Source: Nannochloropsis oceanica (Eukaryota > Sar > Eustigmatophyceae > Eustigmatales > Monodopsidaceae). Taken from it: a stretch of DNA of 64,000 nucleotides. The notes beneath the pieces are model-generated. The model was not told where the DNA came from, did no database searches, and saw nothing but the letters and a program-made list of their open reading frames with translations. Both the position numbers and the translations under genes were made by a program. Location: NCBI GenBank assembly GCA_004519485.1, contig CP038135.1, forward strand, positions 931,001 through 995,000, written 5' to 3'. Numbering within the stretch: position 1 is the first letter of the stretch; each line of letters opens with the position of its first letter. This document shows positions 17,103-61,935 of this stretch, piece by piece.

Positions 17103-17891
17103 ACATTGGAGAAGGTGTGGTGGTGATGAGGGAGTGAAGACAGAAAGACGGAGAGTGGGAAGAAGAGGGTAATCAAAAGGGTAGTGGGTTCGAAAGGAAG
17201 AATGTAGGTGGAATGTGTGTGGTTGCAGGGGGAGGTTTTGTTGTCTTCCGCTTTTTCAAAATTTACAGAAAAGAAGCACAGATTTAATTATGTTGAAACA
17301 GGTTTGGTCTTCTGCTCTTTGCGCCCACTTTACCCCTTCGGGGGGTTCTTTCATCCTTCCTTCCTGAAGACAACGATAAAGATAAGGATAGAAACAGGAA
17401 ATAGATGAAGCCTTCAAAGGAAACTATCACTTTAGCGCAGCACAATACCGTACGAAAACCTGCGCCCTAAGGCACTTGATCATTTTTTCATTGTCGACCT
17501 CCCCACCCCATCCACCTACGCAGCCCTCTTCTTTTCATCTCTTTTTGTGTAAAAAAAATGCGTCTTGCATTCGCAATCATACATCCAACGTACCTACCAC
17601 CATAAAATTCAGTTCCACAATCTATATCTGTGTATGACGCGCACCTATTTTGTGTTTAGAAAAGGGAGTCATGGACCCAGAATTCTTTTTTTGCAAAAAA
17701 AAAAAAAAAACAGAAATGCTGATTTTATTTTCTCACACAGCTATGGCCACACCCACACACCTACGCACATGCAGATTGAGCTATTAAGACGAGGGGTTTA
17801 CGCTTAGAGAGTCGTCCACGCTTTTGCATCGCTCTCCATACGCGCCTTGCTTCCCCCTCCCTCCCTCCCTTCCGTCACCTCCCTACCTAAA
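17103..17891. other. intergenic region between PAM68-like and PIH1-domain genes
   Basis: Both flanking genes are on the plus strand. The interval holds the PAM68-like 3' UTR and the promoter of the PIH1 gene. An A run lies near 17694-17710, and A/T content is raised from 17530 to 17760. The ORFs inside (for example 17208-17408) have no family resemblance. Confidence 0.4.
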
Positions 17892-20327
17892 ATGGCGGCG
17901 GAAGAAGAAAAGGACATCGCCGCACTATCCCACATCATCAACGGCAGTCCAGGCACTGACAATATCAACCCACCCACGCCCGAGGAGTCCGAGGCATTGG
18001 TGCGGATACTACAGGAAAAGCCTAGTCTGATTTCTAAACTCGCAGAGACCCTGTCACCTTGCCGCCATGCCGCCCCTAGCCCTGCACAACGAGAGGAAAA
18101 GGAAGCTTACATGCAACAATTGGAAAATGAAGGCAAAGTGCCTGAGGGAAAGGTTCTGATTCGACCCAAGGCGGGCTTTGTTATCAAGACGTTCAGGATG
18201 GTGATGGAAGGAGCAGAGAATGGGGGAGGGGAGAGAGACCGTGTGGCCGAGCCGAAGCATAAGACGAAAGTATTCGTTAACATCGTCTCTTCGGACAAGC
18301 TTGCTGGCCCCACTGCTACCGGGGATCCTTCTTCCGTAAAGGGAAAGGCAGGAAAAATGATCACGGTTCCAAACGTGGTGGGGCCATCACGCATGGAGGA
18401 AGACAATAAAGGCGCCTCAGTTCCTACAGTTGATTTCTGCGTGCATCCTTATGCGGTCCACCTGGCCTTATCTTCCTCTTCCTCGTCTTCTCCTTCTCTT
18501 CTTGGTGGAGGTGGAGAAGGAGGGGGGGGGGGAGGTAGAGGAAGAGGGTTCAAGGATTTGCTGGTGGAGATGGCCTTGGAGAGTGCGGTCAGGTTGTGGC
18601 AAGCGGAGGAGGATAGGAAGGAAGGGAGGGCGGGAGGGAAAACGGTTGACAAGAAAAGGATGAGGAGGAGGAGGATTGAAGTGGATGAACAGTACATAGT
18701 CTTGAAGGGCTGTAGATACAAGGTGGGGAAAGAGCCCTCGACGCTCGTCGTGGACTCGAAATCCTTGGCCTCCCTCTGTCCCTCCCTCTGTCCCTCCCTT
18801 TCTTCCTCCCTTCCTCCCTCCACGTCGCCCCCCCCTCCCATGATCCTTGCTCCGCCTAATAGCAGCGTTAGAGCAGCAACAGCAGCAGCAGAAGCAAAAG
18901 AAGCAAGGATCATTGAGCACTCAAGGAAAATGCAGACAAAAGCGGCGGGGGGGGGGGGCGAGGACGATGAGGAGGAGGAGACGAAGGATGAGGGCCTTTG
19001 CTCTCCTGTCTCTTCAGACCCCAGATGCACTATCTCTTCTTCCACCTCCCCTTCTTCCGTCGCTCCCTCCTCCGTTGCAGTCTACCCTCTCTCCGACGTC
19101 AAGATTGTGGAGCAGGGAGGAGGGAGGGAGGGAGGGAGGGAGGGCGTGGACCTGGCTGCAGTCATGGTGATGGATGCCCCAAACTCTCGTCTGCGCGCTC
19201 GTTCCTCTCGGCCTCATTCCCTATTGCTGAAGGTGGTCTTGCCAGAGGTAGGGAGGGAGGGAGGGAAGGAGGGAGGGTGGGTGGAGGAGGCATGGTCCGT
19301 GGCGGTTGCGGAGAAAGAGCTGCTGGTCGAGAGCCGGATTTTTGAAGAGAAGGAGGGAGGTAGGAAGGGATTTCGGGAGGGAGGGAGGAAGTACATGCAG
19401 AGGGTGAAGCTGCCTTACCCTGTTCGGACGGAGGAGGAGATGGGGGAGGAAGGGAGGGAGGAGGGGGTGATGATGGCGAGGGTGGTGGTGGAGGACGGAA
19501 GGAAGGGAGGGGCGGCAAGGCGATTGTTGGTAGTCAGACTGCTGGTGAAGAAAAAGGAAGATCAGGTGGTACAGTTTGATCAGCCGACGGTAGTATGGGA
19601 GGAAGGGAAGGAAGGAGGTAGGGAGGAGGAGAAGGAGGGAGGGAAGGAGGAGAAGGAGGAGGAAAGAGTAGAAGGAGGAGGAGGGAAGAATCATGAGCGA
19701 TGGGTAGCACTGGCGCCGGAAAGTGGTATTGACCTCGCTAGTTTGAATATCCAAGGAGGAGAAGGCGGAGCGAAGGAGAGGGTTGATGACGAGAAGGGGG
19801 GTAAGCATCTCTCGATCCTCCCCGCTATGAAGGAGGTTGGTGAGAGACATGGCGGGCAATTGCAGCAGCAGCAGCAGCAACAACAGCAACACGGGGAGGA
19901 GGAGCAGCAGCGTCTACACCCACCTAATCGGCTGGACGGTAGAAGGGAGGATGGGGTACTACAACCGGACTATGAGATGACGGAGGAAGAGACACATTTC
20001 TCTCTCTTGTTTTCAGTCCCAGGCATCGATGTTTCCTCAGTCCAAGTCACTTGCAGCAGTTGCAGCAGCAGTAGCAGTGAAGGCACGATGAATGTTGTCT
20101 TCTCTTCTTCCTCTACCTCATCCTCCTCTTTTCCTCTCTCCTTGTCGACTGCCTGGTCTTTGTCCCTGGCCCTTCCCAAGCCCTTGGGCCTCTCGTCGGA
20201 ATGTACCTGGCAGGTGTCCAGCGAGAACATGTGGCTGAGGGTGCCTAAAAGGGCCACGGGAAGAGCGGAAATGATGCAGAAAAAGCCACTATTGACGAGC
20301 CCGCACATATTCGCGATGTGTGAGTAG
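17892..20327 (+). CDS. PIH1-domain co-chaperone, Kintoun-like architecture
   Basis: PIH1 proteins are HSP90/HSP70 co-chaperones, found in R2TP (PIH1D1) or in dynein preassembly (Kintoun/DNAAF2, PIH1D2/3). The frame is intronless. The in-frame start upstream (17847) is TTG, while 17892 is ATG in a good context (AAAATGG), giving 811 aa. The PIH1 domain is at ~75-285, with GFVIKTFRM, KVFVNIVSSDKLAGP, MITVPNVVGPSR, VDFCVHPYAVHLAL and EQYIVLKGCRYKVG. A CS/p23-like domain follows at ~430-545 (HSLLLKVVLPEV, YMQRVKLPYPV, RLLVVRLLVKK). A second CS-like strand set near the C-terminus (THFSLLFSVPGIDVSS, WSLSLALPKP, SSENMWLRVPKR) matches the long Kintoun layout. Acidic GAG/GGA linkers and a Gln run (~660) lie between. 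Whether it belongs to the PIH1D1 or Kintoun branch cannot be settled by eye. Confidence 0.82.
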   Translation: MAAEEEKDIAALSHIINGSPGTDNINPPTPEESEALVRILQEKPSLISKLAETLSPCRHAAPSPAQREEKEAYMQQLENEGKVPEGKVLIRPKAGFVIKTFRMVMEGAENGGGERDRVAEPKHKTKVFVNIVSSDKLAGPTATGDPSSVKGKAGKMITVPNVVGPSRMEEDNKGASVPTVDFCVHPYAVHLALSSSSSSSPSLLGGGGEGGGGGGRGRGFKDLLVEMALESAVRLWQAEEDRKEGRAGGKTVDKKRMRRRRIEVDEQYIVLKGCRYKVGKEPSTLVVDSKSLASLCPSLCPSLSSSLPPSTSPPPPMILAPPNSSVRAATAAAEAKEARIIEHSRKMQTKAAGGGGEDDEEEETKDEGLCSPVSSDPRCTISSSTSPSSVAPSSVAVYPLSDVKIVEQGGGREGGREGVDLAAVMVMDAPNSRLRARSSRPHSLLLKVVLPEVGREGGKEGGWVEEAWSVAVAEKELLVESRIFEEKEGGRKGFREGGRKYMQRVKLPYPVRTEEEMGEEGREEGVMMARVVVEDGRKGGAARRLLVVRLLVKKKEDQVVQFDQPTVVWEEGKEGGREEEKEGGKEEKEEERVEGGGGKNHERWVALAPESGIDLASLNIQGGEGGAKERVDDEKGGKHLSILPAMKEVGERHGGQLQQQQQQQQQHGEEEQQRLHPPNRLDGRREDGVLQPDYEMTEEETHFSLLFSVPGIDVSSVQVTCSSCSSSSSEGTMNVVFSSSSTSSSSFPLSLSTAWSLSLALPKPLGLSSECTWQVSSENMWLRVPKRATGRAEMMQKKPLLTSPHIFAMCE

Positions 20328-21923: not shown

Positions 21924-22854
21924 AGGAGGGATAGACAGACACGGAAGGCGTGACCGACGGGACGAGATCGGGCAGCAACTAGTAAATTTAGTAGTACAAT
22001 CGTTTCCTACTCGTTGAGGGGTGCGGACGACAAGGTGCTTGGGAGCGCAGGGGAAGGTGTGAGAGAGGAAAGAAAGGAGGTTGAAGAAAGCGAGGATGTA
22101 TGAGAGTGACGGGAAAAGCGAGTATTAAAGTGAGGAAGTCAGAGTGACAGAGAGAGAGTGTGTGAATGAGTGAGAGAAGAATTTGGGGGGGGGGGGGGGG
22201 GAGATAAAGGGAGAAAGAACGAACAAAATAACAGGTAAAGCGAATCAAGAAAGTTATCACGGCACCACAAACACACACTCACAAATAAAACCGAGTGAAA
22301 CGTAGGGAAAGAAAGAAGCACCGACAGCAGCAAAGACAAGTCCAGTGACAAGGCACGTGACTGGCCACTCCCTGGGCGTGGGTGTACCACGGGGCATGCT
22401 GTAGATTATGTTCGGCCGATGAGTCAACTCATAGGGTTGGGCTGTTCCTGAGTTGTTTCGTTTTTCCTCAGGGGAATAAGTTGGCCCATGTGGACGTGGA
22501 TCGTTCGAGGGGCTGCTGCTGTCACCTTGCACGCTCCTCCCTCCCTCCCTCCCTCTCTTCCTTCCATCCCCCCCCCCCCCTTTGCGTTCAAACAATCAGC
22601 TTTTTTGATGATTCTAAATTCCCATGGCTGCTGTTGCTGCCGCTGCTGCTTCTACTTGTGCTGTTGCAACTGCTGCTGTCATTGCAGCTGGCGGTGTAGT
22701 TTTTGTTGTTGTCGTAGGGGTAGTATAAGAGCACCTGGTGCTGCTGCTGCTGCTTCCACTACTCTTACTGTTACTGTTGCTGCTGCTGCTGCTTCCACTA
22801 CTCTTTTTGTTACTGCTACTGCTGCTGCTGCTTCCACTACTCTTTTTGTTACTG
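21924..22854. other. intergenic region with simple repeats
   Basis: This tail-to-tail interval lies between the decarboxylase (plus) and the rRNA methyltransferase (minus). It contains a G run near 22184-22202, a C run near 22569-22580 and the start of a CTG repeat block. Apart from one doubtful small ORF (listed separately), no coding sequence is convincing. Confidence 0.45.
22257..22397 (-). CDS. possible 46-aa single-helix membrane protein (doubtful)
   Basis: From an ATG at 22397 the frame encodes 46 residues with one hydrophobic stretch (CLVTGLVFAAVGASFFPYV) after a short Pro/Arg-rich start. A GTGAGT donor-like site occurs inside the last codons, so it may also be the first exon of a longer gene. 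The preceding bases (TCTACAG) look like a splice acceptor. I recognise no family and cannot exclude chance. Confidence 0.2.
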   Translation of the reverse strand: MPRGTPTPREWPVTCLVTGLVFAAVGASFFPYVSLGFICECVFVVP

Positions 22855-22875
22855 CTACTGCTGCTGCTGCTGACT
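22738..22875. repeat. CTG-rich minisatellite overlapping the 3' end of the methyltransferase gene
   Basis: About three tandem units of roughly 40 bp are each built of a CTG/GCT run followed by CTTCCACTACTCTT and TGTTACTG. The last units are nearly identical. On the minus strand the block supplies the terminal Gln codons and stop of the rRNA methyltransferase, so repeat length may vary the C-terminus. Confidence 0.75.
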
Positions 22876-33351: not shown

Positions 33352-34861
33352 TCAAATAGCCACCCTTCCCTTCCTCCCTCTCTCCTCTATTTCCCCTCCC
33401 TGCTCCTGTACCAAAGGCTGTGACTTACTGTCTCTCCTTCCTGTCAAGCCGTAAGAGGCCGTTCCTCCTCTTCCTCCCCCTCCTCCAGCCACCATGCCCT
33501 CCATCCCTTCCTCCCCCTCCCCTGCCCCCCTTCCCTGCACTACCTCCTCCTCCTCATTTCCCCTCTTCTCTTCGTTCTCCTTTCCCGCCTTCCTCTCCCT
33601 CTCCCTCTCCCTCCCCCACACCGTTCCGATCAGCCCCAGCACCACCAACACTCCTCCGCCCGCCTCGCCCCCCGTGACCTTGTCCCCCAAAAAGACGAAA
33701 GACAGAAGTGCGGTCCCCAACGGCTGCAGCGTTGAATAAATTGATATCACTGCGGGGACCACCACCGTCCCTGCCCAGCTGTACGCATTATAGTTAAAAG
33801 CTGTTCCGAATATGGCGGCATAGGCAAGAGCAAGCCAGGGGGCGAGGGAAGACGAGAGGGCGTAAGCGGAGGCGGGGAGGGACTTGGAAAGGCAAATGAG
33901 GAGGGTGAGAATGGAGCCAATGCTGTAGTACCAGGCCGTCACGATGGTGGGGTGGTAGAAGAGAAGGGCTTTTTTTTGAAAGACCAGGAGGGAGGCCATG
34001 GAGAGGCATTGAAGGATGACGATGACGTTTCCGGCAATAAAGTCCGCTTGGCTCGCTTTCTCGCCTGTTCCGGGTATGGGTGAGTGGACTACTTCCACGA
34101 CCACTGCGCCCGCAACGGCGGCTAGGAGGCCCAGGGTCTTGATGGGGGTGAGTTTTTCCATGCGGAAGAGGACGGAGAGCATCATGGTGAAGACTGGGAT
34201 GGACGGTTGTAATACCGAGAAATTAGTCGGCGAGATGAGGGTGAGTGATTGCACTGCACCCAGGACGTTCCCAGCGGAAAAGAGACCCATGGCGAGAAAA
34301 CGTGGGACATGCTCCTTTTTTAGGTGCCAGCTGGAGGGAGGAGGAGAGGGAAGGAATGGAGGGAGGGGGGGGGAGAAGGGGGGTAGGAGTGATGAGTAAC
34401 ACGAGTTAAACATTGCGGCATGACGGAAGACAATTGTCACCACCACTACCACGATTCAAGCACGCGGTCCTCGCCCTCCATTTCCCACCCTCTACATACT
34501 TGTGCTTCCCCTTCCATACGGCCATGCTGGCGCACATCGCCATCAACGCCGATGCACTCAGCTCCCGATACAGTGCAAAGACCAACGGGTCAACACCCTT
34601 GGTTTTGAGGGCGCTTGAGGTCAACACGTGGTAACCCGAGAAAATGAATTGCACCAGCACTAACAATGGATGCACACAGCAGGCGTTGGTAAAGCAACCT
34701 TTACTCTTGCTATCCACATCAGCATCACTATTGACAGTGCTGGGCGTGCTTGCATCTCCGCTGGTCTCCCCGTTGCCGCCTCCAGAGGCAGAAATGGACA
34801 TGGAGGCGGCCTTGCCGGCGGGCGTCATGCCATCCTCCAAAAGTGTTATCGATTCATCCAT
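33352..34861 (-). CDS. DMT-superfamily (EamA/WAT1-like) metabolite transporter
   Basis: This is a ten-helix drug/metabolite transporter with two EamA repeats; the cargo is unknown, and plant WAT1-related proteins move auxin or amino acids. Exons 34861-34500 and 34330-33352 join in phase (446 aa) across an intron with a GTATGT donor. The first ~55 residues are polar (SISASGGGNGETSG). Helices begin at HPLLVLVQFIFSGYHVLTS. The first repeat includes NVLGAVQSLTLISPTNFSVLQPSIPVFTMML. The second includes AIFGTAFNYNAYSWAGTVVVPAVISIYSTLQPLGTALLSFVFLGD, typical of WAT1-like proteins. The C-terminal ~90 residues are a charged cytoplasmic tail with Glu/Gly runs. The first three codons lie inside a 488-bp segment duplicated upstream. 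Confidence 0.9.
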
Positions 34862-36218: not shown

Positions 36219-37203
36219 TAGAGCTTGGTCTTAATAGGTTTGTAAAGAAAATGACGAAGCATAAAATAAAGATGAAGAAAGAGAAGAAGGAGGGAAAAAG
36301 GTATATAGTTGCTGAAGGAAAACGAGTGAGATTTGTTCATTTTACACTTGCTCTTTAAGCTCTTGCTCTCGCACTTTACAGGGATCCTCGACATCCATAG
36401 CTGCAACTGTTTCTTCATCCCTTTCTCTCTACCCTTCTTCGTCTCCTCCAGCATCTCATCCCGCACCGCCACGGCCTCCGTTGTGTGTTGTTGTGGTGTT
36501 GTGCTTGTTGCTTGTATGAAGAGCGCAAAAAATATATATTTATTTTTACATTTAATTTCCCCGTGTTCGACCTAAACAATACTGTTGCCGGGACGAAACT
36601 GCATCGTTCGTGCGGGCTGCGCTCAAGACGACTGCATCCCGGGAGGAGGGAAGAGAAGGGGGGAGGAGGAAGGCGGATGCCTGGAAGGAAAGGGCCGCAA
36701 ACAAAAGATGGCAGGGCTTCATGATGTGAGTAGATGGCAGGTTCCTGTGAAGGGTGCATGTGAGGATGCGAGTGTGAGTGCTGGAAAGAGATGTGGCAAG
36801 GAAAGTCGTAATGATGCCATGCGAACGGCCTAACTTTAATGTGTCTTGCCTTGCCTATATTGTGTCGACTTTCGCAGTCGCTGCGTCCACTCCTTGCCCT
36901 CTTTCCCTCTCTCTGAACTAGGGTCCACATTCCTTTCCCCGTCCATATTCCTTCTCTTTCTTCCACTCCCTCCCACTGCCTTTTTTTAATCATTATCCCC
37001 TCTTTTTTTTCACACTCACTCTATTTCACAACACATTCGTCCCCTTCTCTTCTCGTTCTCTCCCTTACAACATGACTTTGTCTTCCTTTCTCTACGCCCA
37101 CACTGCCTCCCTCCCTTTTATCCCTCCCCCTCTCGCCCCTATCAAAGAGTCGAAATAGGCGATGAAGGAGGTAACTCTACCACACCCACATATGGATAAT
37201 TTA

Positions 37204-37463
37204 ACAAACTTCCTACCGGACAGCGGATATCCCGAGATTTGGCAGTGTGTACATCGAGATTTGGATCGAAGAAAATTGGGACGAAAAGTCAGTCTCGAAC
37301 TGCGGCCCAAGGGAGTGTGAATCAAAATTTTGGACCCAAGAAAGTGATGTTGGGACACAAGTCTCGAATCCCCGCCCAAATGAAAGGGGGAGTGTGTGGC
37401 AATTCGGGCCGAAGGATATGGCTTCGGGACACAAGTCTCAATTCGCGGCCTAAAATTAATTAG
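37204..37463. repeat. 74-bp tandem repeat, about 3.5 units
   Basis: Units start at 37278, 37352 and 37426 with GGGAC-(AC)AAGTCTC, and a more decayed unit precedes 37278. Each full unit is exactly 74 bp and shares GGGAC, GTCTCGAA, a GC-rich GCCC core, AGTGTG and a GAAG/GGAC block. Because 74 is not a multiple of three, translated similarity between frames is incidental. Divergence between units is high, so it is an old noncoding array. Confidence 0.75.
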
Positions 37464-37622
37464 AAATTACTTGGGAACGCCAAATGCACAACACGGAGGT
37501 AAAAGACATACCAAGTCACGTGGTGAAATATGTAGACCTGATTCTTTTTTATTTTTTGTGCGACAGGTCAAGTGGCGGGGTGGTGCTTGGGAAAAACACA
37601 AAGGTGAAAATCGTAAATATTT

Positions 37623-37658
37623 TGGTATGTGCCCGTTGCAGGGAACGGGCACATACCA
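37623..37658. repeat. perfect inverted repeat, 15-bp arms with 6-nt loop
   Basis: Arms at 37623-37637 and 37644-37658 are exact reverse complements (TGGTATGTGCCCGTT and its complement) around the loop GCAGGG. The stem would be G+C-rich and stable in RNA or as a cruciform. A related sequence, GGTATGTGCGCCC, recurs near 37877. Confidence 0.85.
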
Positions 37659-37972
37659 TGTGTTGGAAATATACCAAAAGGTACACCAGGCAATAATTAA
37701 TCGCCAGGCGATCATTTTAGCATGATAGCAACTATAAAATTGGACACAGAAGAAGGTATCCTGCTTTTCAGGCCGCACATTCTCAGGATCCCTTGGGGAA
37801 AACGGAAAGGCCAGGCTCGAAGTTGTCGAATCTTTCGGTGATTCCAGCGCGTGCGTGCATCTGCTTTTCCGTTGGGTGGTATGTGCGCCCTTGGCAAGGC
37901 AGGCGCTACCCGAAAGTCCTAGAAAGGAACGTCCCGTCGTCTTTTGAGTCAACAACCCACGTATACGGTCTT

Positions 37973-38042
37973 GGATGACAGCCAAGCAGAAACAAAGCAT
38001 ATATACACGGCCGTGGATGAAAGCCATGCAGAAACAAAGCAT
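37973..38042. repeat. pair of 28-bp direct repeats
   Basis: 37973-38000 and 38015-38042 match at 26 of 28 positions, both ending in GCAGAAACAAAGCAT. Their starts are 42 bp apart. No ORF uses them. Confidence 0.7.
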
Positions 38043-38324
38043 GGTATGAAATCTGGCCTGTGCGTCAGATAATGTGAGCATATCCCGCCCCAAATCCGAA
38101 CGAATCGCCGAGCTGCCCCCAAGGAAAGTGCATTCATTGACTCTTTCTCTCTTCTTCTACCAAAAAATAGTTTTTTTGGTCACATTCTGGGACGAGGCAT
38201 GCGTATTTGGGCATTGGCTTCAGGCTAGTCCAGCCCGGTTGTTACATGTTGGACAACAGCCCCTACACTACCATTATGGTAGATTGCCAGGAGCAGTAGA
38301 ATGTTTTCCCCTCCTCCCAAGAAC

Positions 38325-38618
38325 CGAGGCAGGCGTGCGTGGCACGCGGCTGTTTTGTTTACTGCCGCCGCACCCACCTATCCCCCCCCCCCCCTCCGTC
38401 CGTTCCCTCCTTCCTACCCACCCATGCGCCACACACCACACACCCACAGCTGATTCCCCCGCGCGTCGGCCTGGAGGTGAATGACAGTATCGTGGCCACA
38501 CCAAAGGGACAGGAGGGCGCCGAGGCAGGCGTGCGTGGCACGTAGCTGTTTTGTTTACTGCCGCCGCACCCACCTATCCCCCCCCCCCCCCTCCGTTCCC
38601 TCCTTCCTACCCACCCAT
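38325..38618. repeat. about 100-bp direct duplication
   Basis: 38325-38425 and 38521-38618 share GAGGCAGGCGTGCGTGGCAC, TGTTTTGTTTACTGCCGCCG, a long C run and CTTCCTACCCACCCAT. Differences are a dinucleotide change and the length of the C run. The copies flank a 95-bp unique spacer. Confidence 0.85.
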
Positions 38619-38739
38619 TCACCGCGACTACAACTTACATTTTGCCATTATGCCAAGGATAACACCACACCCTCCATTAGAGCCGTCACACTTCCTCTCT
38701 ATTTCCCCCCCTCCCCCCCCCCCCGTCCTCAAACCACAG

Positions 38740-39419
38740 ACAAAGGTACACCTCGATTGTGGGCAGCGTCTAAACCCAATTGCGAGAATGGCAGAAGGAG
38801 AAGGAGGTGAAGGAGGTGGAGAAGGAGGAGAAGGAGGTGGATAAGGAGAAGGAGGAGGTGGAGGAGGAGGAGGAGGAGGGGGAGAAGGGGGAGGAGGCGG
38901 AGGAGGAGAAGAAGAGGAGGAAGAAGAAGACGAACAAGAAGAAGAAGGAGGAGAGGAAGAGTTAAAAGAGGAAGAAGAGGAAGAAGAAGAAGAGGAAGAG
39001 GAGGAAGAATAAGAAGAAGAAAAAGAAGGAGAAGAAGAAAAAGAAGGAGGAGAGGAAAAAGAAGAAGAAGAGGAAGAGGAAGAAGAAGAAGGGGGAAGAG
39101 GAGGAGGAGCAGGAGGAGACGATGCGTTTCCGAGGACTGTATTGGTGTGACACCTGTGAACAGTTCGTGTCCCGGGACGGCAATGGGGCACGTAACATCC
39201 TACGGGTGTACAGGAGTATGGTCTGTGGAGAAGCTCGTCCCCATGATCTTCGGTTTGGTCAACCGCGGCAAGATATGCGGACACTCTATGTGTAGCGATC
39301 CCGCTGACCTCCTCTTTTATCCTCCTTCCCCCTCTCCTCCTGGCCCTGTGTGGGCCGTCCGGGGACTTTGCCAGGTCAAAAAACCTGTCAAAGTCGCTAA
39401 TAAAACTCGGACAAGGAAA
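38740..39419 (+). mobile_element. decayed Fanzor/TnpB-like (OrfB) zinc-ribbon ORF remnant
   Basis: The segment from 39122 encodes RGLYWCDTCEQFVSRDGNGARNILRVY. This is the second half of the OrfB/TnpB C-terminal zinc ribbon: a CxxC knuckle, then RDxNGAxNI carrying the last RuvC aspartate. Eukaryotic Fanzor proteins, the relatives of TnpB RNA-guided nucleases, end this way. Upstream, at ~38740-38780, another frame reads KVHLDCGQRLNPIARM, like the first half of the ribbon with one cysteine of its CxxC replaced. Between them lies a ~340-bp purine-only tract coding Lys/Glu. I see no convincing rest of the nuclease (RuvC-I/II) upstream, and the copy looks broken. The element type (IS607-like or other DNA transposon) is unknown. 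Its 3' part overlaps a dispersed repeat (39304-39507). Confidence 0.55.
38790..39120. repeat. purine-only GAA/GAG tract
   Basis: About 330 bp of the plus strand are made almost entirely of G and A in GAA/GAG/AGG triplets, with only a few T or C. It sits between the two apparent halves of the zinc ribbon. Such tracts can form triplex DNA and expand by slippage. Confidence 0.85.
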
Positions 39420-39507
39420 TAAGGGATGACAACAATTTATTGTTGGAAGGCTCCCCCTCGTATGCAAGTCCTCGAAGACGTCAGGTTGCATGCGATAGTT
39501 CTAGAGA
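39304..39507 (+). repeat. dispersed ~205-bp repeat, copy 1
   Basis: This matches the reverse complement of 55757-55957 along its whole length. Shared blocks include CTGACCTCCTC, GGGCCGTCC, GGGACTTTGCC, AACCTGTCAAAGTC, AAACTCGGACAAG, TTTATTGTTGGAA, CTCGTATGCAAGTCCT and GACGTCAGG. It starts inside the tail of the zinc-ribbon ORF and runs past its end. Confidence 0.88.
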
Positions 39508-40735
39508 GATGTAGGAACGCAACTCAAAAGAACTACGGTAACACAGAACCAAAATGTGTTATCAATGCCTGTTGATGTATAAATTTTCCGCTCGCCTTGG
39601 TCCGCGTAATTGCTGATGATGTCATATATTTTAGGCGCCGCCTGGTGCATCTCCGAAAGTGGCCACGTCACACCCATCTGGTCTACCCCACAAAAAGGCT
39701 CTGCCAGCAATCTCGGGCACTATTCTGCTTTTCTATCCATACAGAGCACAAGAAAAGAGGACATCCGCATTCCCGGTCAATGTTTTCTTCACCGAATGAT
39801 GGAGAGCGAGTGTTCCACTTCCACGCGTCGGGAAACCAGAGAGGGAGAACAAAAGATCAACATCAAGATTAAATCAGCATTCGCAAATATCATCCGAAGG
39901 ATCACATCGCGACCTGATATAAGAAGATGCCTTGAGTGTATACGGCACGTACAATTAAATACTCTTCCCGTGTCCTTGACTTGAGGAAAGCACAGACAAA
40001 CGCACGAGTTCTTCGTCGTTGACATCTCGGAAGGTCGACAGCGACGCACGCAACTTGATGTTGCAGAGCAGTCATGTTTGGGCTTATACGACCCCCGCAC
40101 CTGCACGCGCTGCCTTGCACAGCTTGATTCACGACGGTTTGCAATTAACTTGATAAAGTACGTACGTCAAATATGCAGGGCTTACACCTCGCTGCACCCC
40201 CACATAAGGCTGCACTAGGCAAGAGCACATGGGTGGGAAAGAAGCCTGAAGAGGAAGAGGAACAAAGAGGCGAACGAACTGCCGACCTCACAATTCCATT
40301 CCCTTGACACTGCTTTGTGACGACGAATCGATGCTCACGTAACGACCATCGGTGCAACCCACACAACTTAATTATTCACGGCATAATTAAGTCCGGCTAC
40401 GTGCGTTGAGCTGCGGCAGGCAATGACGCGTGGCATGGGAGGTCAATTGCAAGCTCAGATGAGCCAGAGACAGCGACGTACGCACACGTTTGGGGCTGCT
40501 GGCAGCGAACACCAAATGCTTCTTGTTGGAAGCTTTTTTCGTGTCAACTTGGCTTGAACTGAGACTTACAACCACCCCATACTGCTCACCACACTTATCA
40601 TAGATCAATTTGCCTGTGCACGCGTGCACCGGCATCATTTGTGCAAGCGACCCGTGCCCAGGCCCTCTCCTCTTAGCCTCCCGTCTCTCGCAGACGAACG
40701 AGAAATAGCCACTTGTCTACTTCTTACGCTGTCCC

Positions 40736-45485: not shown

Positions 45486-53827
<8,342 letters not shown>

Positions 53828-55362: not shown

Positions 55363-56437
55363 TCATTAGTGCACGATTTATTACAAATTGCTCGGTCTGT
55401 AAATACTGGTAGAGACGACATGTGTATGTATAGCATCAGCTTCCTCTTGCCTTTGTGCTTGCTTGAGACATGAAAAGCATGTACGGTCTCATTGGAAAGA
55501 AAAAAATTTGAACTGAATGCAGTTTTCCCAAGTCTTTTGTGGGCTCTTTAACTTGACCCTCTTCATTTGGTTGTTCTAAGAGCTACCGCCACCTTTGTTC
55601 CTTTGTTTGGAGAAATGCCCCATCTTTGACTGTGGCGGTGTCCCGCTGATAACGCACAAGAATGCCTTGTTTGCTTTCTCCCAGACAGAAAAGATAGGAT
55701 TCGTTTGTTAGTAGGGTTAGGATTATTAGTTCTTTTTTTTTTGCCGTTACACTCCTATAGAACCATCGCATGCCACCTGACGTCCTCTAGGACTTGCATA
55801 CGAGGGCAAGCTTTCCAACAATAAAATGTTGCATGTACTTCCCCCTATTCTTGTCCGAGTTTTCTTAGTGACTTTGACAGGTTTTTAATCAGGCAAAGTC
55901 CCTGGACGGCCCAAACAGGGCCTGGAGGAGGGGGGGGGGTGGGGAAGAGGAGGTCAGCTAGGGTTGTGGGCAGGGGTAACGTCTTTTTCGAGGAGGAAGC
56001 TCGCTCATGAAAGCTGCGAATCTCCTCTGCCCAAAATATGGTGGGGGACTCAACATGCAAAACATATTTGTCACAGTCCGGTATATTCAAGTTTTCTCCC
56101 CTTGAGAGCACATCTTTAGGGAAATGGGAGGTTGGTTGGGGAAAAGGCGATTGTTCTGCGCCCGCGTCTCCGTGAGGTTGCTGTGCTTTGTGCTGTCAGA
56201 CACCCTCCGAATTAAAGCGAGCGATAAGGAAACTTCCTTGCTGACAAACAGGCTTATGGTCAGCCGCACCATCAATATCAAATCACATAACAACCTTCGT
56301 TTACTAAGTAATAAGCTCAATGAGCTCGCACACAGACAGGCCTGGCTTCGCAGTGCGAGCGACAGGCCATGGCATGACATATACACTTATCATACGTATA
56401 ATGCAATCCCTTTTACAGGTTGGCCTTGGGCAACAGC
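55363..56437. other. intergenic region containing a dispersed repeat
   Basis: This lies between two plus-strand genes. It contains the VAMP7-like 3' UTR, a copy of a 205-bp repeat (listed separately) and the upstream region of the DDX42-like gene. A polypyrimidine-AG (CCCTTTTACAG) 20 bp before the helicase start suggests a 5' UTR intron. The minus frame 56111-55845 reads into the repeat and shares its tail with the zinc-ribbon locus. Confidence 0.45.
55757..55957 (-). repeat. dispersed ~205-bp repeat, copy 2 (inverted relative to copy 1)
   Basis: This is the reverse complement of 39304-39507 with scattered substitutions and small indels. The upstream neighbour on the minus strand (ORF from 56111) is unrelated to the zinc-ribbon segment beside copy 1, so only the 3' module is shared. 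Both copies keep a near-palindrome around TTTATTGTTG. Confidence 0.88.
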
Positions 56438-58970
56438 ATGAATTTCCGACGGCCTGGCGGACAGACATACCGTCCTCCCGCTACAGCAAGTGCGAACATT
56501 AGTAGCAACTCCACCGCCGCCTTGGCGAGTAAAGCGGGCAGCAGCGCTGAGGCTGATTACTTGGCCAAGGCTCGACAAAAAGCAAAGGGTCTCAAAGGAT
56601 GGTTTGACAGCGATGATGATGACGATAATGCTGGCGGTGTCGGAAAGAGGCGCGGAGCGCCCCCACGGCTAGACGACGACGATGACCCGCTGGATGCCTT
56701 CATGAAGCAGCAGATGCAGGAGCAGCAGCAAGGGAGTGGAGGTGATGAAAAAGGTGCCACTGTTCCAGGTCCTACGTCAGTTATGTCTACGCCTTTATCG
56801 TCTGGAGAGGAGAAAGAGGTGGATCCATTGGACGCATTCATGGCCGGTGTGCAGAACAAAGTACAAGAGGAGGCCCAAAAACCGTCGCAGGCTCCATGGG
56901 ACAAACCAGAGTACCTGGATGAAGAAGCGGCGGAGGAAGACGAGAATGCAAGGGAGGAAGGGACGTTCTCGGACGATGAGGGAGGGGATTACATGCGCCG
57001 ACGGGTGGCGGGGGAGGATGATTATAACTATGACTCTGATGCCGAAGTGTACGCAGCAGGGGCAGCTGCAGAAGCGGCAGCCGCCAAGAAAAGCGAGGGC
57101 AGCGAGGGGGGCGTTGGAGTGTTGGGGCTGGAACCTGGCAAGAAGTATAGTCGCATGGGGCCGGAAGGGAAGAAGGCGATGGAGGTCCTCCCGCCATTGG
57201 ACCACGCGAGCATTGACTACCCGCCGTTCCGCAAGTGCTTTTACGAGGAGCACCCGGACGTAACTGAAATGGACTGGGAGGAGATGCTGCGTTATCGAGA
57301 AGAAGAATTACAAGTACAGGTGGAAGGCCGCGAGAGCTGTCGGCCTATTGTATCGTTCAAGCACGCCACTGGCTTTTCCGAGATACTGCTCCGCGAAATC
57401 GTCAAGAGGGGGTTTGAGGCCCCGACGCCGATCCAGGCTCAAGCCCTTCCCCTCGCCCTCGCGGGTCGCGACGTCCTCGGCATCGCTCAAACAGGGAGTG
57501 GGAAAACCCTGGCATTTGTCTGGCCGGCAATCGTACACTTGATGGACCAACCACACATTCAACGAGGGGACGGGCCGATTGTTCTTATATTGGCACCGAC
57601 ACGCGAACTCGCCTCCCAGATCTATGTCGAAGCTACCAAGTTCTCCAAGCCGCACGGCGCCAAAGCTGCCGCCATCTTCGGCGGGGCGGGAAAATGGGAA
57701 CAGACAAAGCTGTTGAAAGAAGGCGTGGAAATCCTCGTGGCGACCCCCGGGCGCTTACTCGAATTGCTCAAGACGAAAGCCACAAACCTCAAGAGGTGCA
57801 CGATGTTGGTACTTGACGAAGCCGATCGTATGTTCGACCTCGGTTTTGAAGCACAGCTTCATTCTGTCCTGGGTCAAATCAGACCTGATCGACAGACACT
57901 TCTCTTCTCCGCGACCTTTAAACGGAAAGTAGAAAAATTGGCGAATGAAGTGTTGCAGGACCCAGTGCGCGTGGTCTGTGGGAAGGCAGGACAGGCCAAC
58001 GAGGACGTGACGCAGGAAGTCGTCGTGCTCCCGAACGAGGAGGCTAAATATCAGTGGCTCGCACACTGTCTTCCGGGGCTGGTGAGGGAGGGGAAGGTGC
58101 TTGTCTTTGTGTCGAGCAAGCAGGGCTGCGAGGATTTGGCGGGAAGACTGACGATCCTACTGCAGGCTGACGCGCGTGCTTCATCCCTCCCTCCTTGGAA
58201 GGTGGAGGCATTACATGGTGATAAAGACCAACACGAGCGATCCCTAATTATGCGTCGATTCAAGCAGCAGCAGCAGCAGCAGCAACAACAACAGGGGGGG
58301 GATGGGGGGAAGGAGGACGGGGCTTGTCGCGTGCTGGTGGCTACAGATGTGGCATCGCGCGGACTGGACATTAAAGACATTCGAAATGTAATCAATTTTG
58401 ACATGGCTCGCAATATGGAAGCGCACGTGCATAGGTGTGGAAGGACAGGGCGGATGACGGTGGAGGGAGGGAGGGAAGGAGGGAAGGCTTTCACGCTGTT
58501 GACGCCACGGGACTCGGGAATGGCAGGGGAGATGGTAAAGGGGTTAGAAGGCGCAAGGCAGAAGGTGCCGGCGGCATTGAGGGCCATGGTGATAGGAGGA
58601 GTAGGAGGAGGGAGGGGAAGAGGAGGAGGGAGTGGGCGAGGGGGTGGTTGGAACGGAGGAGGTGGAGGAGGAGGACGTGGGCGGGGGGGGGGGAGGGAGG
58701 AGTGGTGCGGGGCCGGGACATCATGTGGTTCCCCCGCCGGCCTCTTACAAGTCAACCAGTGGGATAGGTTTTGGAGGAGGAGGGGGAGGAGGAGGAGGGG
58801 GAGGTTTGATGGGAGGGATGTCCTTGTTTATTCGACAGCAGCATGAATACCACACAGTTGCAGATAGAGGAGAAGGGGGGGGGACGGGAGGAAGAGGAGG
58901 AGGTGGGAGCGCACAGCAGGGCCAGGCGCCTGTGGAGGGTGACAGGAAGAGGAAGAGCAGGTGGGGATGA
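56438..58970 (+). CDS. DEAD-box RNA helicase, DDX42/RH24-like
   Basis: DDX42 (plant RH24) is a nuclear ATP-dependent RNA helicase linked to U2 snRNP and pre-mRNA splicing. The ATG at 56438 starts MNFRRPGGQTYRPP; the frame reaches back to 56420 only through a TTG. An acidic N-terminal part (WFDSDDDDDN, DPLDAFM twice, YNYDSDAEVY) precedes the core: FEAPTPIQAQ (~325), AQTGSGKT (~350), PTRELASQI, LDEADRMFDLGFE (~457), FSATF (~489), VATDVASRGLDIK and HRCGRTGR (~665). A short Gln insert sits between the last motifs. The C-terminus is Gly/Arg-rich. The main frame ends at 58846 with an unusual tail. A second frame, taken from the G run near 58684-58694, gives VVPPPASYKSTSGIGFGGG and ends GDRKRKSRWG at 58970, the usual style for splicing helicases. 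A homopolymer length error there is likely. Confidence 0.9.
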
Positions 58971-60138: not shown

Positions 60139-60450
60139 GTTTGTCTGTGGGCTGATTGTCAGGGAGGCTAGGGAGGCTGGGAATGGTGGATAGGATCCAT
60201 ATGAATGCGTTCGAAAGACAGGGAAAGAAGGTGACGACAACCTGCATCCCCAAGGCTTGCATGTATTTGTGTGAGAGTGGATAGAGGAGGTGTGTTGGAT
60301 TCGCAAGAAATGCGCAGGGAGCTTGGCCACCATCAAGGCAGACAGGCTACAGCTGTCAATGCACGCAAGCAAATGATAATGATGGTGAAAGGTACTTCAG
60401 TGCTAACTCACGCCACAACACCATTAAACAGACGCAAAGTTGCCTTGATA
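60139..60450. promoter_or_regulatory. compact bidirectional promoter between RPA43 and release factor 2 genes
   Basis: Only 312 bp separate the chosen start codons (60138 minus, 60451 plus). Both frames stay open into this interval (to 60372 and from 60271), so the true starts could even overlap on opposite strands, but neither extension carries domain sequence. Confidence 0.45.
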
Positions 60451-61935
60451 ATGACGGTCATAAGGCCTGGGGCAAGCAGTGGCCATGTAAGGAGCAGACG
60501 GAGAAGACCAAGACCCTACGGCCTGCTTCCCCTCCTCCTTTCCGCATGCATCCTCCTGGAAGTGAAACCATGCAACGCCTTTTGCCTCCCTTTGCCAACG
60601 TCCTCCCTCTTCTCTTGCAGCAGTAGCAGCAGCAGTAGCAGCAGCAGTAGCACCGAGCCATCTGCGCCAATTCCTAGAATAAGAAGAGCGCGAGCACTGA
60701 TGGTTTCCTTCTCCTCAGCCTCCCCATCCTCCCCCTCCTCCTCCTCATCCTCCTCCCTCTCCTTCTCCTCCGCCCCCATCTCCGATCCCGGTGAGCTCAA
60801 GCGCCTGCTAATTGAAGCCAAAGCTTCCGTCCAAGCGAACACCGCCTCCTTAGACCTAGCTAAATTCGAAGGAGAAATCAATTATTACGAGCAAGAGGCC
60901 GCCCAGGAAGGTTTCTGGAGCAAGCCGGCAAAAGCCCGGGCAGTTCTTACTAAATTAACGCGATTAAAAGGCATCGTGGCACGGGTGAATGGATGGGAGA
61001 AAATGGTGGAGGATGCGGAGACGGCATTGTTGTTGTGGGAGGAGGAGGAAGGGGGGGAGAGCGAGGTGTGGGGGCAGGAAGGGAGGGAGGGCTTGCGGAA
61101 GTTGATGGAGGACTTGGAGAGGTGGGAAGTGGAGAGACTTTTATCTGGACCTTATGATGGATGTGGATGTCGTATGCTGATTACGGCAGGGGTGGGGGGG
61201 GCAGATGCGAGTGATTGGGCAGGGATGCTTTTGCGGATGTACACGAGGTACGGGGAGAGGAAGGGGTGGAAGGTGAGGGTAGTTGAAATGAGCGTGCCGG
61301 TGGAGGGTTTTGGGGTGAAGAGTGCGATGGTGGAGGTGGAGGGAGACATGGCGTTTGGGTTTCTGAAGGCGGAGAAGGGGACGCATCGGCTGGTGAGAAT
61401 CAGTCCGTTCAACAGTGGAGGCAAGAGGCAGACGAGTTTTGCAGGGGTTGAGACCATGCCGATCTTGTCCGAGGAGGCGTTGGAGGAGGTGGTGATTGAG
61501 GAGGGGGACGTGGAGATGACCACGTCAAGGGCTGGAGGGGCAGGGGGTCAGAACGTTAACAAAGTCGAGACGGCCGTGCGGCTGAAGCATCTGCCGACGG
61601 GCTTGGTAGTGAGGTGTCAGGAAGAACGTTCGCAGTTGCTGAACCGGAAGAAGGCGATGGATATGTTGAAAGAGAAGCTGTTGGTGGTAAAGGAGGAGCA
61701 GAGGGTGGAGGAGCTGGCGGAGATTAGAGGAGACCTAGTGGAGGCGAGCTGGGGACAGCAGATCCGGAATTACGTTTTGCATCCTTATAAGCTGGTCAAA
61801 GACACGCGGACGGAGAGGGAGACCGTGGATGTAGCGAGCGTCTTGGAGGGGGGGGAGGGCCTGGATGACTTCGTGGGTGCGTATTTGCGGTGGAGGTCCA
61901 AAGAAAATGTCGTAGAAACGTTGGTTGAAGGATAA
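60451..61935 (+). CDS. prfB: plastid peptide chain release factor 2
   Basis: Class-I release factor 2 recognises UGA/UAA in bacterial-type ribosomes and triggers peptide release. The ATG at 60451 gives 494 aa without introns. A hydrophobic signal ([16 protein letters not shown]) leads to CNAFCLP, an AF plastid presequence, followed by Ser-rich transit sequence. The mature part begins near [13 protein letters not shown], with the PCRF domain ([37 protein letters not shown]). The stop-codon tripeptide is SPF in [15 protein letters not shown], diagnostic of RF2 rather than RF1. GGQ lies in [22 protein letters not shown], and the end is [17 protein letters not shown]...FVGAYLRWR. The bacterial programmed frameshift at the start of prfB is absent, as expected for a nuclear gene. 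The alternative start at 60271 would put 60 residues before the signal peptide. Confidence 0.95.

Follow-up and report, generated by a model that had tools for sequence, protein, structure and literature searches.

Fanzor1-like elements with a shared 3' end, target CTA and a candidate guide-RNA module in Nannochloropsis oceanica

Does a short zinc-ribbon coding segment in the genome of Nannochloropsis oceanica, followed by a 3' module that recurs nearby, mark a Fanzor element, and what would the module be for? The window, that is, the whole stretch of DNA analysed here, comprises the 64,000 nucleotides of C9:931001-995000 (G+C content 55.5%) within a 29.26 Mb, 32-contig genome. The combination of ribbon and recurring 3' module, first noticed in the initial annotation, is confirmed, and with at least 42 genome matches it goes beyond chance. 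We put at roughly 60% the probability that the window contains a Fanzor1-like element in a non-autonomous, internally deleted form as well as a solo right end at 55.7 kb, with Helitron-type spread and a 3' module that would act as guide RNA. Fuller copies elsewhere in the genome encode a RuvC protein with the Fanzor fingerprint and a ribbon; copies have a common 3' end, variable 5' ends and target duplications beginning with CTA, and purifying selection acts on the coding sequence. What we infer is the guide RNA, the target motif and the transposase.

The module of about 205 bp does recur in inverted orientation in the window, as had been proposed: positions 39303-39506 align with 55958-55755 at 82.5% identity (E 2e-53). 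Across the genome there are at least 42 matches to 39100-39520, at least 41 to the 3' module alone and at least 40 to the diverged module of 55.7 kb (itself at 100%, the rest at 79-89% identity), each of the three match lists resting on 40 candidates scored out of 182-192. The pattern of the terminal stem has 84 exact matches, against 2 for the reversed control. Merging the four lists yields at least 112 distinct 3'-end places, 39 of which are known by the short terminal pattern only. The expectation that the module lies at the 3' ends of Fanzor-like genes is borne out for 31 of the 41 listed module matches, which overlap a listed match to the ribbon region 39100-39520; the other 10 do not. 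Nearly all listed matches to this region include the ribbon exon, the exceptions being C11:850057 and C15:405368, where the exon lies partly or wholly outside the match. Our main sample, 20 segments of 9.9 kb that surround top-scoring matches, is biased toward ribbon-bearing copies, since the query included the ribbon; coordinates in L010-L013, L016-L018, L023-L025 and L027 are given in turned orientation unless stated.

The window copy extends on the forward strand from about 36884, a limit set by homology only, to a sharp right end at 39535. It is 98% identical to L021 from 36884 onward and 96.5% identical to L012 across 37215-39522. Its 5' region (36884..38279, +) is common to the fuller copy L017 at 94% identity: L017 3358-4325 and 4314-4563 (turned orientation) match window positions 36997-37988 and 38031-38279. 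After 38279 the window copy has no RuvC or N-terminal coding sequence, and homology with the RuvC-bearing copies L017, L018 and L022 begins at 38739. Directly thereafter, 38740..38787 (+) encodes the first half-ribbon TKVHLDCGQRLNPIAR (TKV-HLDC-GQRLNPIAR), recognized from the outset as lying ahead of a purine tract; in fuller copies it is preceded by the catalytic glutamate, which this copy has lost by deletion. The second half-ribbon, with CDTC and RDGNGARNI, is encoded by the terminal exon (39135..39295, +), which starts GLYWCDTCEQFVSRDGNGARNIL and ends with TAG at 39293-39295. The segment 39122-39298 translates to MRFRGLYWCDTCEQFVSRDGNGARNILRVYRSMVCGEARPHDLRFGQPRQDMRTLYV followed by a stop, the Fanzor-type terminal half-ribbon that had been read there. 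The copy was rightly suspected to be broken, and what breaks it is the absence of the RuvC domain, the glutamate preceding the ribbon and the N-terminal part. The purine tract is not the cause, because fuller copies with both half-ribbons also carry it. The non-coding module follows at 39296..39532 (+). The second locus (55727..55958, -) is a diverged 3' module alone, a solo right end with similar stems; the 82.5% identity holds over 55755-55958, and its terminal CTA occupies 55727-55729.

The tract that splits the ribbon (38788..39134, +) is purine-rich, contains a TRF tandem array at 38899-39114 and ends ..CGAG at 39134. A purine tract stands between the half-ribbons in all eleven listed copies that have both halves, with lengths from about 170 to 1,170 bp. 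Counted by hand in ten of these eleven copies (L022 was excluded for a run of N), the reading frame across the tract is kept in four (L010, L017, L018 and L043) and broken in six (L009, L012, L013, L014, L016 and L037). The following exon starts behind the same AG in the listed copies, although the search pattern itself partly required AG. We considered a translated glycine linker and rejected it: L018 does read through, but the frame varies between copies and L017 has a stop inside the tract. The tract is probably an intron, to judge by its frame and borders.

On the right-hand side, homology stops at one place in all 24 aligned ends: CAAAAGAA is followed by CTA and then by unrelated flank, the CTA being exact in 19 of the 20 main copies. 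Since the homology of all these ends stops alike, the suggestion of the initial annotation that the module is an element end is supported. The left (5') ends vary between copies. In seven of the 20 copies the upstream side carries a 9-13 bp direct repeat whose first bases are CTA, compared with 6 of 380 combinations in a control in which flanks and loci were exchanged. In the remaining 13 no target duplication reaches 9 bp; the window copy is one of these, and a search for a duplication there found none. The duplication lies at most 8 bases from the limit of homology in L018, L022 and L023, and several hundred bases of other sequence separate it from the shared body in L015, L016, L019 and L021; this intervening 5' sequence is possibly captured host DNA or represents other 5' variants. 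A solo 3' end of about 110 bp in L013 has a 12 bp duplication, CTAACCCACATC. In the related locus L011 the same site is unoccupied and has a single CTA, with a further gap beside the site; as the empty site already has its CTA, the triplet is target-derived, and we assign CTA 39533-39535 of the window copy to the target by this comparison. When this CTA and 15 nt of flank were searched in the genome with up to two mismatches, the sole match was the window copy itself.

Several further observations concern the same sites. The stretches between duplication and shared body (L015 6681-7006, L016 5351-5761 in turned orientation, L019 6084-6535 and L021 5688-6460) are unmatched in the other fetched copies. 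L010 contains two tail-to-tail copies (1658-1933 and 1970-2389, as fetched), in which each 3' end has its own CTA, as if both target strands had been used. About 8-15 nt past the right end, nine of the 20 copies (L018-L023, L025, L027 and L028) have an A-rich or di- or trinucleotide repeat. Just ahead of CAAAAGAA the length varies from about 1 to 20 nt (window positions 39519-39524, other copies alike), as if the end slipped during copying. L013 2112-4742 differs from L011 at 6878 (turned) by 2.6 kb in length; the part at L013 2411-3181 shares 97% identity with L017 2490-3246 and may be another mobile element.

The 3' module is predicted to form five stems. The window module (39338-39539) folds with a z score of -5.1 against shuffles (0 of 200), and the 55.7 kb module, with similar stems, folds with a z score of -2.25 (4 of 200). 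In the terminal stem (39496..39535, +), TAGTTCT pairs with AGAA-CTA, and the last stem therefore includes CTA from the target. A conserved, structured non-coding region thus extends from the 3' end of the gene to the right end of the element, as in OMEGA systems, and the module is compatible with a candidate guide-RNA scaffold. Covariation over 25 copies is uninformative: 95.5% of cells are paired, compared with 95.4% in shuffles, and two-sided pair changes are fewer than in shuffles; because the 25 copies are too alike, pair counting lends the fold no support beyond chance. A search of the module against Rfam gave no match near threshold; a sub-threshold SAM_alpha match of 14 bits was taken as chance.

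By analogy with characterized systems, the guide would start just behind CTA, which would itself serve as target-adjacent motif. According to the consulted part of PMC10711439, the Fanzor1 target duplication is predicted to lie within the RNA scaffold, and reads continue about 15 nt past the duplication; in insect-virus Fanzor1s, as here by predicted folding, the duplication takes part in the scaffold, its pairing there being itself a folding prediction. Unlike the present family, these viral elements have terminal inverted repeats and RNA reads; ours is known from sequence and folding. Consulted sections of PMC10432273 describe an RNA in Spizellomyces that extends 14-15 nt past the conserved end. 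Fanzor1 target motifs vary between species, as stated in the part of PMC11423790 seen, so a new motif such as CTA would not be odd.

The module could instead be nothing but a cis-acting transposition end, composed of DNA hairpins for the recombinase and a transcription terminator and containing no guide scaffold, with the protein a passenger or relic. We consider this somewhat unlikely. Helitron ends do bear 3' hairpins, the covariation counts are uninformative, and in L013 a solo end of some 110 bp has been mobile, leaving a target duplication, so the last 110 bp seem sufficient in cis. However, the stable fold spans about 200 nt, far past the terminal hairpin; in Spizellomyces it is the region from the Fanzor1 stop codon to the right end that yields the guide RNA (PMC10432273, in the sections consulted); and the coding part of the family is under purifying selection. 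Here pN/pS is 0.25-0.50 in all ten pairs formed by five RuvC readings (L040 with a stop and L018 partial among them), and the ribbon exon shows 21 synonymous versus 16 non-synonymous changes (p 1.9e-5; 20 exons from 19 loci, counted as distinct events with kinship ignored).

How might an element with such a guide-RNA module spread? Target-primed reverse transcription leaves variable 5' ends, a fixed 3' end and short target duplications. The present family shows the same three features, which fit either this process or one-ended rolling-circle copying. We find it distinctly unlikely that the same Fanzor1-like gene was moved by target-primed reverse transcription, with a helper reverse transcriptase priming at CTA. 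Such a process would account for a fixed 3' end, for truncated 5' ends and chimeric pieces there, and for duplications of 9-13 bp; the tail-to-tail pair in L010, where a 12 bp spacer flanked by CTA on each strand separates the copies, also agrees with it. Against it stand the likely intron, which is present in the measured copies and unexpected from a spliced RNA template, and the scarcity of a suitable enzyme: RVT_1 has three weak matches in the genome, all below cut-off, and RVT_2 none, the control genomes being equally silent. The consulted part of the N. oceanica genome paper (PMC3499364) reports two LINE copies (659 bp), no sign of recent retrotransposon activity, and Helitrons as the most abundant transposons. 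We prefer rolling-circle copying because matches to reverse transcriptases are weak and few, Helitrons are abundant and the genome paper gives no sign of recent retrotransposon activity. The terminal stem, with its 84 matches against 2 in the control, corresponds to the 3' terminal hairpin of Helitron2. The Helitron Rep domain PF14214 gave no match in the genome, and control genomes were equally silent; the searches for PIF1 fragments returned 19 and 10 matches (the 10 being PIF1-2B), some of them presumably ordinary host helicases. No helper element with the same 3' end was identified.

The protein is best read from the fuller copies. In L017, L018, L022, L037, L040, L041 and L042, TDG is followed by IDPGRVN and then by PEHLTTKVHLDCGQRLNP; the ribbon is preceded by RuvC, and IDPG, TDG, E-HLTTKV-HLDC, CDTC and RDGN occur as ordered motifs. 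In PMC10711439, Fanzors are recognized by DPG together with a glutamate placed six residues ahead of the zinc finger; TDG is named there as a mark of Fanzor1, and the finger is described as present in many Fanzors, not all. The RuvC1 motif IDPGRVN is found in the same seven copies and in L044; IDPG also occurs in the fragments L045, L053 and L054, with decayed forms in L050 (IGPG) and L055 (INPG). The TDG of the WED domain reads STDGVSVSVFF in L017, L018, L022, L037 and L041; TDG is also present in L040 and L045 and is changed in L042 and L044. Six residues separate E291 from His298 (numbering of A2 row 1), with His counted as the first ligand; in fragments the glutamate site reads PEY or NEH (L045, L051, L052 and L053) or, where it is lost, HKY (L054). 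The Fanzor1 pattern in the part of PMC3627910 seen is D-X(125,275)-[TS][TS]-XX-[C4]-X(5,50)-RD. In the same row, 159 residues lie between D134 and T294, after which TTKV follows, and five residues separate the finger from RD in all 20 ribbon readings from 19 loci.

The exception is the C4 finger, whose first position is never Cys: 10 of 13 readings have His there, and L040, L045 and L052 have Gln, Tyr or Pro, once each. In the main copies Cys fills the remaining three positions. Older fragments (41-73% identity) likewise have no Cys at the first position, so the change is no recent mutation. As read from their translations, the fuller copies appear to agree with all of these published Fanzor1 criteria except the first Cys ligand. 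In 19 of the 20 fetched copies the second half-ribbon has an uninterrupted frame between GLYWC and one common stop; in the twentieth, L024, a stop replaces the Trp ahead of the first Cys, and in the more diverged locus L043 the stop comes earlier than in the main copies. Stop-free open frames with RuvC matches are found at C4, C8, C9 and C27, the C4 and C8 copies being 5'-truncated by their own target duplications; L040 has one stop, and L041 and L042 are frame-shifted. None of the copies examined was seen to span the whole gene from start codon to stop codon. On the minus strand several copies share open frames of about 210-230 codons; nothing else pointed to a second gene there, and we set that reading aside.

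Profile searches were less telling. Checked against PF07282, as had been suggested, the window ribbon scores 14.0 bits and L018 12.9 bits, both under the cut-off of 26.3. The Fanzor identity put forward for this locus accordingly stands through the relatives, with their DPG, alternative glutamate and TDG, and does not stand for the window copy alone. The RuvC part gave nothing usable against Pfam and PDB, being too diverged or matching on glycine runs, and a sequence search found no relative among solved Fanzor structures. Two scans revealed no viral relatives. A motif scan gave at least 120 stretches and, from them, at least 80 viral-contig loci, in which at least 64 open frames no shorter than 150 codons contain RDVNAARNI; DPG and the alternative glutamate occur together in none of the listed viral-contig readings. 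In a profile comparison with 30 of these viral-contig TnpBs, VPEHLTTKVHLDCG is in register with VSESYTSVTCSSCG (P 0.02, probability 2.3%). That the ribbon is a fragment of an unrelated zinc protein, TnpB-like by chance, is very improbable: Pfam scores are weak (RYYR-CCHC ranks first for the window peptide at E 0.036, also below cut-off), as is the comparison with TnpBs, but the fuller copies have TDG, DPG, E, TT, H/C, CxxC and RDxN in order and at the published spacings.

The N. oceanica family is a real variant of the known anatomy of Fanzor1 elements, set apart by a CTA-closed stem, a non-Cys first ligand and a split ribbon. Among its closest parallels are CRe-1, CRe-2 and CRe-3 of Chlamydomonas, which the consulted sections of PMC3627910 assign to Helitrons via shared ends. 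These too carry a Fanzor1 gene with several exons, nearly always keep the 3' end while showing 5' truncation and internal deletion, produce short target duplications (theirs about 7-19 bp) and have additional non-Fanzor pieces at some 5' ends. Unlike our family, which has no identified helper with the same end, they have ends matching a known Helitron; their target is TTTT or T-rich, whereas the N. oceanica duplication starts with CTA; and our ribbon differs in lacking the first Cys and in being split by a purine tract. Spu-1/SpuFz1 of Spizellomyces punctatus (PMC10432273, in part) likewise has a conserved 3' non-coding region from stop codon to right end, and ghost copies without the protein in which a related region persists. 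However, Spu-1 has 30-nt inverted repeats, in contrast to the longer N. oceanica module, for which no inverted-repeat partner was seen, and its RNA was sequenced (88-90 nt, with a variable extension of 14-15 nt), whereas we compare sequence and fold. A table in PMC3627910 counts one Fanzor1 (NOc) in N. oceanica; this entry, given there as a count only, is possibly the same family. The Fanzor passage of PMC6338049 concerns DNA transposons. In the open full-text Fanzor literature, as partly covered here and with supplements outside it, we found no description of a CTA-closed stem, a missing first Cys or a split ribbon.

Taken together with the preferred reading, these features suggest how the element might work. 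It would spread by one-ended, 3'-anchored rolling-circle copying of the Helitron type, with the copying machinery supplied in trans. The 3' module would be transcribed as a guide-RNA scaffold in which the CTA of the target closes the last stem, and the host sequence directly after CTA would be the guide, CTA or a longer (TAC)CTA doubling as target-adjacent motif. If CTA is both insertion preference and target-adjacent motif, cutting at unoccupied sites that match the flank is to be expected: the Fanzor of a full copy would cut such sites for each copy, favouring re-copying of the element. In its most ambitious form, the proposal is a 3'-anchored Fanzor1 system in which CTA serves as insertion preference, last scaffold pairs and target-adjacent motif at once, the roughly 100 3' ends form a guide library served in trans by a few full copies, and the ribbon, with His for its first Cys, is encoded across an intron; as a whole we hold this tentatively and consider it unlikely. 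If true, the many nuclease-less 3' ends would be dispersed guides for few full copies. Should small RNAs run past CTA, the solo ends would be natural guides whose matching sites could be traced across strains; should there be no such small RNAs, the module would merely be a transposon end. The family offers a concrete, testable case, in a cultivated alga, for what Fanzors do for their elements: its copies are many and much alike, solo ends occur, insertion sites can be measured and a target motif is predicted. As a second algal genome beside that of Chlamydomonas with one-ended Fanzor1 spread, it argues against a local oddity.

Elsewhere in the window lie ordinary host genes, namely a PIH1 domain (17847-20324), an EamA transporter (33355-34452), a DEAD-box helicase (56420-58843) and an RF-1/PCRF release factor (60271-61932), and two tandem arrays: 3.4 copies of a 39 bp unit at 22741-22871 and 28.8 copies of GAGG at 50166-50278. 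The genome also contains a second, decayed TnpB/Fanzor-like family, seen in L033 1498-1692 (C11) and L034 1327-1709 (C2), which has an ordinary CxxC ribbon, TCSSCGLVNEGL, then CxxCG; against PF07282, L033 scores 31.5 bits and L034 23.7 bits, the latter below cut-off.
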